Below, in pieces: positions 16,233-22,539 of a stretch of 64,000 nt of DNA. A model generated the notes under the pieces. It was not told the origin of the DNA. It made no database searches and saw nothing but the letters and a program-made list of their open reading frames with translations. The position numbers and the translations under genes were made by a program. Each line of letters starts with the position of its first letter. Position 1 is the stretch's first letter. The stretch covers positions 186,001 to 250,000 of the forward strand of contig JAVKGW010000002.1 in NCBI GenBank assembly GCA_031460175.1, written 5' to 3'. The stretch comes from Armatimonadota bacterium (lineage in GTDB: Bacteria; Sysuimicrobiota; Sysuimicrobiia; Sysuimicrobiales; Sysuimicrobiaceae).

Positions 16233-16970
16233 TCAGCCACCGCGCCGGGCCTCGTACAGAAGCACGGCCGCCGCGGCCACCACGTTTAGGGATTCCGCCC
16301 TGCCGTAGATCGGGATCCGAACCCGGGAGGAAAGGGGCCAGGGATGGCGGGGCCCGCTCCCCTCACTGCCCAACACGAGGGCCACGGGAGGCGTGTAGTC
16401 TGCCTCCCGGTAATCCACCTCCCCCCTCGGGTCCGCCACATACACCCGCCCCTCCCGCACTTCCTCCGGCGTGGCCCGCGCAATGGGAAGCGCAAAGCAG
16501 GAACCCGCGCTCGCGCGGACGGCCCTCGGGTGGAAGGGATCCACGGTCCCCTCGAGCACGGCCAGGGCGTCAAACCCCGCGGCGTCCGCGGTGCGGATTA
16601 GGGCCCCGAGGTTTCCCGGATCCTGGATCCCGTCCGCCACCACGAGCCGGGACCACCGGAGGGCAGAGAGGGAGCGTACCTCGGGGATCCGGACCACCGC
16701 GCATACGGGTTGGGGGGTCTCCACGTCCGCCAGGGCCTCGATCACCCGCGGCCCCACCCGGAGTATCCGCACCCCCGTGCGCTGAGCCAGGCGCTCCAGC
16801 TCCGGCAGGGGTTCTGCCACCAGGAGTTCCTCCACCCGTCCCCCCACCCGGAGAACGGTCTCCACGAGCCGGATCCCGCTCACCACCAACCGGCCTTGGG
16901 CCCACCGCTCCCGCCGACGGGCCAGGGCCCGGAGTTCCCGGATGTGCGGGTTCTTGGGGCTGGTGATCAC
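16233..16970 (-). CDS. TrmH/SpoU-family RNA 2'-O-methyltransferase
   Basis: A 245-residue SPOUT methyltransferase. An N-terminal substrate-binding region ([20 protein letters not shown]) is followed by the knot domain with the three family motifs: [20 protein letters not shown] (motif 1), [12 protein letters not shown] (motif 2) and [19 protein letters not shown] (motif 3). It resembles the Bacillus YsgA rRNA methyltransferase that sits in the same place between rplT and pheS. The GTG at 16970 overlaps the rplT stop (GTGA). The modified nucleotide is unknown; 23S rRNA is the likeliest target by position. Confidence 0.9.
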
Positions 16971-17323
16971 CCCGGACGGGCCGTGGCGCTGCGGACGATC
17001 TCCGCGAATGCCTGGGGATCCCGAACCGCCAGATCCGCCAGGACCTTGCGGTTCAGGGCGATGCCGTTCTGGCGCAGGGCATGCATGAGCCGGCTGTACG
17101 ACAGGCCGTGCTGGCGGGCAGCCGCGTTGATGCGGACGATCCACAGGCGTCGGAAATCTCGCTTGCGCTGCCGGCGATCCCGGTACGCGTTGCGGAGGGC
17201 CCGCATCACGTACTGGTTTGCCAGCTTGAACCACCGGCTCTTCTTGCCCCAGTAGCCCTTGGCGAGCTTGAGGATCTTCTTGTGGCGGCGGCGTACGGTC
17301 TTTCCCCGCTTCACCCTCGGCAT
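16967..17323 (-). CDS. rplT: 50S ribosomal protein L20
   Basis: A 118-residue protein beginning [20 protein letters not shown] with [15 protein letters not shown], the standard L20 sequence and length. L20 binds 23S rRNA early in large-subunit assembly. In Bacillus and E. coli it also represses its own operon through the infC or rpmI leader, which bears on the hairpins found ahead of infC here. ATG 17323 is preceded by GAGGGGAG. It lies 12 nt after rpmI and overlaps trmH by 4 nt. Confidence 0.98.
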
Positions 17324-17335
17324 GTTCCGCTCCCC

Positions 17336-17539
17336 TCACTCCAGATCGTACGGGATCAGGGCCCGGATGCGCCTCGTGTCCTGGGGTGCCACCGGCACCT
17401 CCTGGGCGAGGCTGCGCAGCCGCCGGGCCCGTTTCTTCTCCTTCAGATGCCCTCCGCCCTGACGCCGGCGGAGGAGCCTGCCGCTTCCCGTTACCTTGAT
17501 CCGCTTGCGCGTGCCCTGATGGGTCTTGGCCTTGGGCAT
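17336..17539 (-). CDS. rpmI: 50S ribosomal protein L35
   Basis: A 67-residue, highly basic protein beginning MPKAKTHQGTRKRIKVTGSG with RRRQGGGHLKEKKRARRLR, typical of L35. The C-terminus (RRIRALIPYDLE) is a little diverged from the usual KRIKRLLPY ending but clearly homologous. It sits between infC and rplT in the universal order with 12 nt gaps on each side, consistent with stoichiometric translation from one mRNA. Confidence 0.97.
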   Translation of the reverse strand: MPKAKTHQGTRKRIKVTGSGRLLRRRQGGGHLKEKKRARRLRSLAQEVPVAPQDTRRIRALIPYDLE

Positions 17540-17551
17540 CCTCCAGCCTCC

Positions 17552-18064
17552 TCACCGCCGGGCCGGGTTGTACACCACCACCATGTTTCGCCCCTCCATG
17601 GAGGGGGGGCGCTCCACGGTGGCGATGGGCGAGACGTACTCCGTGAGCCGGTCCAGGATCATGCGACCCAGCTCCGGGTGCACCGCCTCCCGGCCCCGGA
17701 ACCACATCTCCACCTTCACCTTGTGCCCTTCCTGCAGGAAGTTGTAGACCATCTTCGCCTTCGTCTGGAAATCGTGATCTCCGATCTTCGGGGTCATCCG
17801 GATCCGTTTCAACTCCATGATCCGGGTCTTGCGGTGCGCCTCCCGGTCCCGCTTGCTCTGCTCGTACTTGTACTTCCCGTAGTCCATGATCCTGACCACG
17901 GGCGGATCCGCCTGAGGCGCGACCTCCACCAGATCCAACCCCGCCTCCCGGGCCCGCTGCAGGGCCACGTGGATGGGAACGATCCCGAGATTCTCTCCGC
18001 CCGGCCCGATCAGCCGGACCTCATGTGCTCGAATCCGTTCGTTCACCCGGGGTTCCCGATGGAT
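17552..18064 (-). CDS. infC: Translation initiation factor IF-3 with probable ATC start
   Basis: A 170-residue IF-3. The N-domain starts REPRVNERIRAHEVRLIG and has VRIMDYGKYKYEQSKRDRE; the C-domain has PKIGDHDFQTKAKMVYNFL and KVEMWFRGRE. IF-3 discriminates against non-standard start codons, and infC often begins with AUU or AUC as autoregulation. Here a strong ribosome site (AGGGAGGGGAG) lies 2-3 nt upstream of ATC at 18064, giving family length. ATG 18109 would put the start inside a perfect hairpin, and GTG 18046 has no ribosome site. Two leader hairpins precede it. Confidence 0.9.
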   Translation of the reverse strand: MHREPRVNERIRAHEVRLIGPGGENLGIVPIHVALQRAREAGLDLVEVAPQADPPVVRIMDYGKYKYEQSKRDREAHRKTRIMELKRIRMTPKIGDHDFQTKAKMVYNFLQEGHKVKVEMWFRGREAVHPELGRMILDRLTEYVSPIATVERPPSMEGRNMVVVYNPARR

Positions 18065-18083
18065 GCTCTCCCCTCCCTCTCTT

Positions 18084-18106
18084 GGGGCATCCTCGGAGGA
18101 TGCCCC
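18084..18106 (-). promoter_or_regulatory. Leader hairpin just upstream of the infC ribosome site
   Basis: A perfect 10 bp inverted repeat with a 3 nt loop: on the minus strand GGGGCATCCT, loop CCG, AGGATGCCCC. It ends about 5 nt before the Shine-Dalgarno of infC and is not followed by a T-run. Position suggests a translational or L20-related control element rather than a terminator. Confidence 0.55.
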
Positions 18107-18115
18107 CATGATCCC

Positions 18116-18149
18116 GGTAAAATGAAAGCGGGCAGCAGAAGCCGCCCGC
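18116..18149 (-). terminator. Intrinsic terminator/attenuator in the infC leader
   Basis: On the minus strand a 9 bp stem (GCGGGCGGC / GCTGCCCGC, one G-U pair) with loop TTCT spans 18149-18128 and is followed by TTTCATTTTA (18127-18118). No gene ends just upstream of it on this strand (the next feature is the divergent mlaE), so it would terminate only transcripts begun in the leader. This is the arrangement of the L20-controlled attenuator before Bacillus infC. I could not identify an alternative antiterminator pairing by eye. Confidence 0.6.
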
Positions 18150-18258
18150 AAGATGTGTCCCGCGCGGAATCTCCCTGTCCCATCACGCGGGCATGGGATC
18201 CCCGTCGCGGAAGGAATCGCCAGGCTTCTGCGCGCACCCGAGCCGCGATCACCCTAAC

Positions 18259-19056
18259 ATGGGCGTGGAGGTCCGTCAAGCCAGGTCACGGCCGTCCCTC
18301 TGGGAGGCGATGGGGCGCGTTGTGCTGGGCTGGCTCGAGGAGCTGGGCGCGGGAACGCTGCTCCTCCTGCGGGTCCTCGGGGCCCTTGCCCGCTTCCGGT
18401 GGGAGGGCCGGGAGACCCTCCGCCAGATGGACCGGGCGGGCGTGGAGTCCATCCCCCTGGTCCTGCTCACCGGGACCTTTTCCGGCATGGTCCTCGCCTT
18501 CCAGACCGCCCGGCAGCTCCTGGCCATGGGAGCCGAAGGGTTCGTGGGGGGACTTGTGGCGGTGTCCATGGCCCGGGAGGCGGCTCCCGTGTTCACCGCG
18601 GTCACCGTGGCGGGCCGGGTGGGGGCAGGGTTCGCCGCGGAACTGGGCACCATGAAGGTCACGGAGCAGGTGGACGCCCTGGAGGTCATGGCCACGGATC
18701 CCGTGGAGTACCTGGTGCTGCCCCGGGTGACGGCCCTGGTGGGGATGTTGCCCGTCCTGGTCCTCCTGGCGAACGCGGTGGGCGGATTGGGGGGCTATGT
18801 GGTCGCGGTCCTCGCGGGGGTGCCGGGGAGCATGTACCTGAGCTCCGTGCGGGAGTTCCTGGACTTCACGGATGTGCTCAAGGGGCTCGGAAAGGCTGCG
18901 GCCTTTGGGGCGGCCACCGGCCTCGTGGCCTGCACCAAGGGGCTGCGGGCCTCCGGCGGCGCGGAGGGGGTGGGGCGGGCCACCACGGGCAGCGTGGTGA
19001 CCGCCATCGTGCTCCTCCTCGTCCTCAACTACTTCCTGGACCTCCTGCTGTTCTGA
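18259..19056 (+). CDS. mlaE: MlaE-family ABC transporter permease (MCE system)
   Basis: A 265-residue integral membrane protein with five to six helices. It shows the MlaE/YrbE pattern: VLLTGTFSGMVLAFQTARQL, VSMAREAAPVFTAVTVAGRVG, AELGTMKVTEQVDALEVMAT and LVLPRVTALVGMLPVL. MlaE is the permease of the ABC complex that moves phospholipids through an MCE ring. ATG 18259 is preferred for length; ATG 18310 or a start at 18193 are alternatives, and no strong ribosome site separates them. It opens a three-gene operon with mlaF and mlaD. Confidence 0.92.
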   Translation: MGVEVRQARSRPSLWEAMGRVVLGWLEELGAGTLLLLRVLGALARFRWEGRETLRQMDRAGVESIPLVLLTGTFSGMVLAFQTARQLLAMGAEGFVGGLVAVSMAREAAPVFTAVTVAGRVGAGFAAELGTMKVTEQVDALEVMATDPVEYLVLPRVTALVGMLPVLVLLANAVGGLGGYVVAVLAGVPGSMYLSSVREFLDFTDVLKGLGKAAAFGAATGLVACTKGLRASGGAEGVGRATTGSVVTAIVLLLVLNYFLDLLLF

Positions 19057-21265: not shown

Positions 21266-21302
21266 AACAGAAAAGCCCCGGGACCGTGGAAGGTCCCGAG
21301 GC
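21264..21302 (-). terminator. Intrinsic terminator of the Lys-rich small gene
   Basis: Read on the minus strand, GCCTCGGGACC pairs with GGTCCCGGGGC around a short loop, then CTTTTCTGTTTTA follows. A G-U pair fits the minus-strand RNA, while the plus-strand version would have a C-A mismatch and no T-run, so it serves the leftward gene at 21326-21418. It lies between that gene and the end of mlaD. Confidence 0.7.
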
Positions 21303-21325: not shown

Positions 21326-21418
21326 TTACCGCTTCTTCTTCGCGCTCTTCTTCGCCGTGGACTTGGCGGAGGTCTTCTTGGCGGTGGCCTTCTTGCTGGC
21401 CGCCTTCTTCGCCGCCAT
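21326..21418 (-). CDS. 30-residue Lys/Ala-rich basic protein
   Basis: A micro-gene encoding MAAKKAASKKATAKKTSAKS followed by a similar basic end, about 45% Lys, made of K/A/S/T repeats like the tails of histone H1-like bacterial proteins. The ATG at 21418 is chosen because AAAGGAGGT, a near-perfect Shine-Dalgarno, precedes it by 9 nt; the longer in-frame 62-codon extension would start inside the promoter. It has its own TATACT -10 element and its own intrinsic terminator, so it is a stand-alone transcription unit. Likely binds nucleic acid or another polyanion; no function is proven. Confidence 0.75.
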   Translation of the reverse strand: MAAKKAASKKATAKKTSAKSTAKKSAKKKR

Positions 21419-21453
21419 GGCTCGGCTACCTCCTTTCCGTTTGGTTTGTAAGA

Positions 21454-21459
21454 AGTATA
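21454..21459 (-). promoter_or_regulatory. Putative -10 element of the Lys-rich small gene
   Basis: TATACT on the minus strand, preceded by TGCG (near an extended -10), about 36 nt upstream of the ATG. No good -35 hexamer is found at 16-18 bp. The surrounding 90 bp (21419-21510) is the most AT-rich stretch in this part of the window. Confidence 0.45.
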
Positions 21460-21510
21460 CGCAGGGAGTGCGAGAATTCCTCCTCCCTTTTCGCAAATTC
21501 GTTCGGGATT

Positions 21511-22539
21511 TCACGCGAAGGCCTGGACCCGTCGGAAGGCTTCCACCGCCCAGGCCACGTCCTCATCCGAGATGTGCCGGTGGGTGACGAGCCGGATCTC
21601 ATGCGGGGAGAGGGCAAAGCAGAGAACGCCCTGGGCCGCGAGCCGGGCGACGAGCGCGCGGGCATCCCCTTCCACCCGCACCAGGACGATGTTCGTGTCC
21701 ACCTGGTCCGGATCCACCTCCACGCCGGGGAGGCGGGAGAGTCCCCTGGCCAGCGCCTTGGCCCGTCGGTGATCCTCCGCGAGGCGGTCCACCATCTCCT
21801 GGAGGGCCACGATTCCCGCGGCGGCCAGCACCCCCGCCTGCCGCATCCCGCCGCCCACCACCTGCCGCCAGCGCCGCGCACGCTCGATGAAGGATTTGTC
21901 GCCACACAGCACGGAGCCCACGGGTGCGCTCAGTCCCTTGGAGAGGGAGAACATCACGGAGTCCACCGGCTCCGCCAGAGCCCTCGCGGGGACTCCCAGG
22001 GCCACCGCGGCGTTGAAGATGCGGGCCCCGTCCAGATGCACCGCGAGCCCCGCCCGGTGGGCGGCGGCGGTGGTGGCCGCGATGCGATCCGGGGAGAGGA
22101 CCACGCCTCCCGCCCGGTTGTGGGTGTTCTCCAGGCACACGAGGCGCGGAGGCGGGGAGTGGGAACCTGCGGGGTGCAAGGCCGCTTGCAGGGCCTCCGG
22201 GGAGATCCAGCCGCGCTCGCCCCGGATGGGACGCAGGGCGGCTCCCGCGAGCGCGCTGAGGCCTTGGCGCTCGTGCTCGTAGACGTGCGCGGTGGCCTCG
22301 CACAGCACCTCGTCTCCCCGCTGGGTGTGCGTGAGCACGGCCACCAGGTTCGCCATGGTGCCGCTCGTGCAGAACAGGGCCGCCTCCTTTCCCATCCGCT
22401 CCGCGGCGAGCTCCTCCAGAGCACGCACGGTGGGGTCTTCCCCGTACACGTCATCCCCCACTTGGGCCTGCGCCATGGCCTCCCGCATCCGCTCCGTGGG
22501 CTGGGTGACGGTGTCGCTGCGCAGGTCCACCTCCCGCAT
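21511..22539 (-). CDS. ltaE: Low-specificity L-threonine aldolase
   Basis: A 342-residue PLP enzyme of fold type I cleaving L-threonine or allo-threonine to glycine and acetaldehyde. The N-terminus VDLRSDTVTQPTERMREAM and VGDDVYGEDPTVRALEE are diagnostic. The active-site region LENTHNRAGG, the VHLDGARIFNAAVALG Asp that contacts PLP, and the Schiff-base Lys in FSLSKGLSAPVGS are all present. It ends about 50 bp upstream of the promoter of the Lys-rich gene and starts 6 nt after the small membrane protein gene. Confidence 0.95.
   Translation of the reverse strand: MREVDLRSDTVTQPTERMREAMAQAQVGDDVYGEDPTVRALEELAAERMGKEAALFCTSGTMANLVAVLTHTQRGDEVLCEATAHVYEHERQGLSALAGAALRPIRGERGWISPEALQAALHPAGSHSPPPRLVCLENTHNRAGGVVLSPDRIAATTAAAHRAGLAVHLDGARIFNAAVALGVPARALAEPVDSVMFSLSKGLSAPVGSVLCGDKSFIERARRWRQVVGGGMRQAGVLAAAGIVALQEMVDRLAEDHRRAKALARGLSRLPGVEVDPDQVDTNIVLVRVEGDARALVARLAAQGVLCFALSPHEIRLVTHRHISDEDVAWAVEAFRRVQAFA

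Follow-up and report, generated by a model that had tools for sequence, protein, structure and literature searches.

The window analysed here, a stretch of 64,000 nucleotides, carries the infC-rpmI-rplT operon on its minus strand. The genes and the features of the leader that precedes them are listed below, with positions counted from the first letter of the window.

16967-17323, minus strand: rplT (bL20), the presumed feedback regulator; TIGR01032, above the NCBIfam cut-off.
17336-17539, minus strand: rpmI (bL35); TIGR00001, above the NCBIfam cut-off.
17552-18064, minus strand: infC (IF-3); TIGR00168, above the NCBIfam cut-off.
18062-18064, minus strand: ATC start codon of infC, the conserved IF-3 start.
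18070-18076, minus strand: Shine-Dalgarno sequence GGAGGGG, 5 nt before the ATC.
18084-18106, minus strand: second hairpin of 10 bp with a 3-nt loop, between the terminator and the ribosome-binding site; a family-level feature.
18119-18127, minus strand: U-rich tail TTTCATTTT.
18128-18149, minus strand: intrinsic terminator stem-loop, stem GCGGGCGGC/GCTGCCCGC of 9 bp including one G-U, loop TTCT.
18135-18143, minus strand: GGCTTCTGC, proposed 3' partner of the antiterminator inside the terminator, a perfect 9-nt complement of 18231-18223.
18158-18212, minus strand: central hairpin CCGCG-A-CGG.../...CCG-CGCGG, with CCGCA/TGCGG at the same place in the sister species.
18223-18231, minus strand: GCAGAAGCC, proposed as the 5' strand of the antiterminator and corresponding to the H1 5' strand of the L20 leader.
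18251-18256, minus strand: -10 element TAGGGT, behind a 17-nt spacer; TATACT/TATGGT in most relatives.
18274-18279, minus strand: -35 element TTGACG, conserved in relatives.

The terminator, the second hairpin, the Shine-Dalgarno sequence and the ATC codon are all present on the minus strand as the original prediction had claimed. It had also compressed both regulatory layers into 90 nt, in a leader much shorter than that of Bacillus, and this estimate is not supported. A promoter-like pair, TTGACG-17-TAGGGT, lies at 18279-18251, and relatives have TTGAC-17/18-TATACT, TATGGT and similar pairs at the same place (the promoter script returned no pair in 7 of 40 loci and a doubtful one in G030 and G033). 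Transcription would hence start near 18245, 181 nt before the ATC. The span 18064-18149 (86 bases) is only the distal half of this leader of about 181 nt; the upstream promoter and the sensor half (18231-18150) had been overlooked. In the window leader, 173 nt separate the first conserved element from the infC match point downstream of it, compared with 139-153 nt in four L20 leaders from Firmicutes (L072, L073, L090 and L123).

We compared this leader with those of related genomes. The sample comprised 43 genomes of the phylum, all from one order, a structure that agrees with the published account of CSP1-3/Sysuimicrobiota (PMC11604079), which is probably the phylum in question; infC was found in 40 genomes, and all 40 leaders were read. 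We found that 35 of the 40 are RF00558-type L20 leaders with AGAAGC-N-GCTTCTCACC, a motif that fits the consensus of the Rfam L20 leader RF00558. A slightly shorter form of the motif, searched genome-wide, occurs in 36 of the 43 genomes, including G041, where infC was not found. Each has one copy except G010, which has a second one near the beginning of another contig (17-36 bases in). The RF00558 model itself matches 16 of 20 scanned loci of the phylum at 22.8-42.2 bits (8 with E <= 0.01, weakest E 3.3), all under the 58.7-bit gathering threshold; among 20 public named loci chosen from 80, three score above it (two Desulfosporosinus and one Peptococcaceae). Covariation was counted on families f5 and f7 only (20 of the 35 canonical leaders) because wider alignments misplaced the H2 helices of family f2 and the terminators of family f1. 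In these 20 leaders, the three helices consist of 99.4% standard pairs, 9 pairs are changed on both sides, and cells changed on both sides number 49 versus 17.2 in shuffles. When the partner is shifted by 1-3 columns, pairing falls to 41-54%. Covariation is strong in helix H2. Helix H1 is invariant, and covariation is therefore uninformative for it. The first three H2 pairs (A-U, C-G and C-G; ACC/GGU) are invariant in the 35 leaders, while the next four take several types (tallied by a script that gave G015 a wrong 3' partner). A covariance model, R1, trained on the 20 f5/f7 leaders, scores all 15 other canonical leaders at 33.8-64.7 bits and all six leaders given to it from Firmicutes (five) and Abyssobacteria (one) at 45.3-60 bits.

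Terminator-like sites in 1.6 kb number 1 versus 0.9 expected, which alone is not above chance. In 39 of the 40 leaders of the phylum, however, the stretch from promoter to infC contains a terminator-like hairpin, and for this reason we rate the one in the window above chance (38 were counted by script, G016 among them after redrawing by hand, and G031 was set by hand; G009 has none). The fold of 18200-18040 has a z-score of -2.0. Covariation, to which the original prediction had looked for support of both stems, bears out the terminator to some degree in the 20 f5/f7 leaders, whereas for the second hairpin it comes down to one compensatory change within family f1 (C-G/T-A, G002 versus G004, read by eye). 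A second hairpin is present in all seven f1 genomes, with differing sequences, and is weakly non-random (z from -1.1 to -2.6, shuffle fractions 0.02-0.15). Outside this family the spacer between terminator and Shine-Dalgarno sequence is often short, with little or no structure and with exceptions such as G020 (z -2.0). Hence, the second hairpin does not hold up as a phylum-wide regulatory layer; its role may be to leave the ribosome-binding site accessible or to shield the read-through mRNA. Part of its 3' arm, GGATGC (18087-18092), is complementary to GCATCC around the ATC (18061-18066), a match that is not conserved in the sister species.

Several other readings of the leader were tried and rejected. 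A generic TTCT-loop terminator would be one source of the complementarity listed above, but the genome has just three sites at which TTT comes 3-10 nt after GCTTCTGC, and the TTCT loop is therefore no common terminator type in this genome. A SorY match (24.4 bits versus a threshold of 111) is regarded as a chance match via a similar terminator. No tRNA was found in the leader, and no T-box match in the window or the leader. Elsewhere in the window, a strong terminator-like hairpin at 21302 comes after a small lysine/alanine-rich, histone-H1-like ORF (21326-21514, minus strand). In G038 and G040 (L068 and L070), the region upstream of infC likewise holds tiny lysine-rich ORFs accompanied by a terminator-like repeat. 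In the leaders of G011 (L042) and G026 (L057), H1 is missing and a terminator-like hairpin stands shortly behind the promoter; the leader of G009 (L040) has neither H1 nor such a hairpin.

In most canonical leaders, the loop or the 5' strand of H1 is able to pair with the 5' side of the terminator, apparently as an antiterminator. The H1 loop region of families f2, f5 and f7 reads GCCATCC (or GCCATCT, GCCGTCC) and complements the terminator 5' arm, most often GGATGGC; the two are complementary in 140 of 140 cells of the 20 aligned f5/f7 leaders. The antiterminator shows little covariation in the aligned families (122 of 500 shuffles are as good). Family f1 shows a shifted or lengthened partner: TTCTG, complementary to the H1 5' strand GCAGAAGC, is present in all seven terminators. 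The loop still provides the strongest unbroken helix in G002, G004 and G005 (CCACGC/GCGTGG). The complementarity of a leader to its own terminator beats 95% of 1000 terminator-arm shuffles in 34 of 37 leaders and fails to do so in G002, G006 and G008. Duplexes across families separate poorly between own and foreign partners (mean -17.0 versus -15.7 kcal/mol) due to the presence of AGAAGC in every 5' strand; the terminator of the window's genus pairs better with foreign 5' strands (-25.7 kcal/mol for f2/f5/f7). When the 5' half of the terminator has just emerged, the antiterminator can be imposed at no energy cost (0.0 kcal/mol) in 31 of the 35 canonical leaders and at a cost of 0.7-3.6 kcal/mol in G002, G003, G008 and G019. 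Once completed, the terminator is favoured by 2.6-15.0 kcal/mol in the canonical leaders.

The window's genus is represented by two genomes, that of the window (G000) and that of a sister species (G001), and covariation within it amounts to one compensatory pair. GCAGAAGCC and the whole terminator are unchanged between the two while the middle has diverged (alignment read by eye). The central hairpin reads CCGCG/CGCGG in G000 versus CCGCA/TGCGG in G001, each with an unpaired A behind it (folds read by eye). Both genomes keep the 5' strand of H1 (AGAAGC/GCUUCU) and miss its 3' strand, and the full motif occurs nowhere in either. The invariant H2 base ACC/GGU, the presumed L20 site, is absent in both, and the different central hairpin stands there. 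RF00558 has no match on the whole window, nor at E <= 10 in 18050-18270. Model R1 gives the window leader 13.6 bits (E 0.0075) and the opposite strand of the same stretch 12.6 bits; the sister locus scores 11.9 bits, versus 18.7 on the opposite strand at another place. Position, promoter, the retained 5' strand and an f1-type terminator, and no model score, suggest that the window leader descends from an L20 leader. Dinucleotide shuffling yields nine contiguous complementary bases between leader and terminator in 19 of 2000 trials for G000 and in 28 of 2000 for G001. As long as the terminator is incomplete, the minimum-energy fold contains the antiterminator in both genomes (zero cost); the completed terminator beats it by only 4.1 (G000) and 0.7 kcal/mol (G001). 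A switch predicted from these folds is kept in the window's genus; its canonical L20 site is rebuilt or lost.

On balance we favour the view that this leader acts as a transcription attenuator and that it evolved from the L20 leader preceding infC-rpmI-rplT. The polymerase would start near 18245 and transcribe GCAGAAGCC, the central hairpin and then the 5' half of the terminator. GCAGAAGCC would pair with GGCTTCTGC as antiterminator, and transcription would continue into infC. If the sensor half is captured or stabilised, GCAGAAGCC would become unavailable, the 9-bp terminator would form and the operon would be switched off. By ancestry, the expected trigger is an excess of ribosomal protein L20; with the canonical L20 site rebuilt or lost, it is ancestry only that points to L20 as the ligand. 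The read-through mRNA would be translated from the ATC, which, as expected from known IF-3 biology, would place IF-3 under its own start-codon discrimination. Of the Bacillus-like L20 attenuator that had been proposed for this locus, the related attenuator before infC-rpmI-rplT thus survives, and the intact Bacillus-type L20 control does not, since the canonical site is missing.

It is possible, and we put it forward tentatively, that the genus swapped its sensor and kept its switch, the antiterminator having shifted out of the H1 loop into the 5' strand of H1 before the L20 site was replaced by a different hairpin. The shift to the 5' strand, which is seen family-wide, would have made the H1 3' strand dispensable, and the new hairpin would read L20 by another scaffold or would read another ligand. 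One family holds apparent intermediates, with H1 and the new antiterminator together in G003 and G006 and H1 gone in G000 and G001. This series offers a testable model of a regulatory RNA that keeps its switch while losing or changing its sensor. A rather doubtful reading is that of an eroded leader, in which the ligand response is lost and the terminator sets a fixed fraction of read-through. The canonical L20 elements are indeed missing in the window leader, and helix H1 is also missing in G009, G011 and G026, the last two of which keep a terminator-like hairpin, so that loss of the canonical sensor is recurrent. However, erosion sits poorly with two species whose 5' strand and entire terminator are identical despite a diverged middle, and with a central hairpin that persists through a compensatory change. 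We consider it unlikely that this is an ordinary L20 leader exactly as in Bacillus, with L20 at the H1/H2 junction: 35 of 40 relatives do have the canonical structure, and model R1, trained on 20 of these, recovers L20 leaders of Firmicutes as well, but the window lacks both H1 and the H2 base and has no RF00558 match.

If the promoter of infC lay downstream of 18128, the hairpin would fall outside the infC transcript and would only insulate it. The -10 element TAGGGT is weaker than the TATACT of relatives, and a strict promoter scan found no promoter. We nevertheless regard this arrangement as quite improbable, with an upstream promoter at the same place in relatives and no upstream gene on the same strand that needs a terminator, because the neighbouring gene, which encodes an MlaE-type permease, is divergent. 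If ATG 18259 is the start of this mlaE-like gene, the infC promoter (18251-18279) would overlap its first codons; a later start is possible.

The ATC start of IF-3, the remaining element of the original prediction, was borne out across the phylum, where a non-AUG start (ATC or ATA) is conserved in all 40 genomes. By sequence, infC starts with ATC in 34 of them, with ATA in six (G002-G006 and G008, that is L033-L037 and L039, from two families) and with ATT in none, each time after a Shine-Dalgarno-like stretch. ATA is a very rare start codon. In 20 of the 40 genomes there is no ATG, GTG or TTG from the in-frame upstream stop to the conserved IF-3 region, and six of the 40 have none in the next 60 nt either. 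A start at ATG 18109 inside the second hairpin, with the ATC internal, is hardly credible: this ATG is in frame with infC but has no Shine-Dalgarno sequence, and the in-frame TAA 15 nt before the ATC in the sister species (G001), together with the lack of alternative starts in those 20 relatives, makes it a very unlikely start.

L20 leaders are described in PMC6097659 as confined to Firmicutes, and our literature search on the L20 leader and infC attenuation found no title or abstract reporting the leader in this phylum, a result that does not prove its absence. Outside both the phylum and Firmicutes, one named genome was checked, Candidatus Abyssobacteria SURF_17 (L131), which carries an L20 leader before infC at 2834-2951 (60 bits with model R1, 34.7 bits with RF00558). 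The motif occurs anywhere in the genome in 53 of 386 genomes around that of the window (36 in the phylum and 17 of 343 outside it, in several families), versus 2 of 386 for the reversed pattern; some of the outside genomes may be Firmicutes. Judging from these sequence matches, the leader is probably not confined to Firmicutes and this phylum. Below the Rfam threshold, it is present in an Abyssobacteria genome and in the majority of the genomes sampled from this uncultured phylum (35 of 40 infC leaders).

Due to the shared operon, the terminator between promoter and infC, the two alternative structures and the non-AUG infC start, the closest counterpart is the Firmicutes L20 leader (RF00558) of B. 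subtilis, where infC starts with ATT (PMC6097659); its H1 and H2 motifs recur in 35 of 40 leaders of the phylum. The window's genus differs from it in lacking the H1 3' strand, the ACC/GGU base of H2 and any RF00558 match, its proposed antiterminator is the H1 5' strand and not the H1 loop, and the phylum lies outside Firmicutes. In E. coli infC, IF-3 autoregulates through an AUU start. That system shares with ours a non-AUG start behind a strong Shine-Dalgarno sequence and differs in the codon, AUU there and here ATC (34 of 40) or ATA (6 of 40), never ATT. Two further systems, compared by their descriptions, are also L20-related: the E. coli bL20 translational operator, which targets the translation of rpmI-rplT and contains a pseudoknot (PMC10931766), and the L20 r-leader candidate of Deltaproteobacteria, which is built on another scaffold (PMC7247131).
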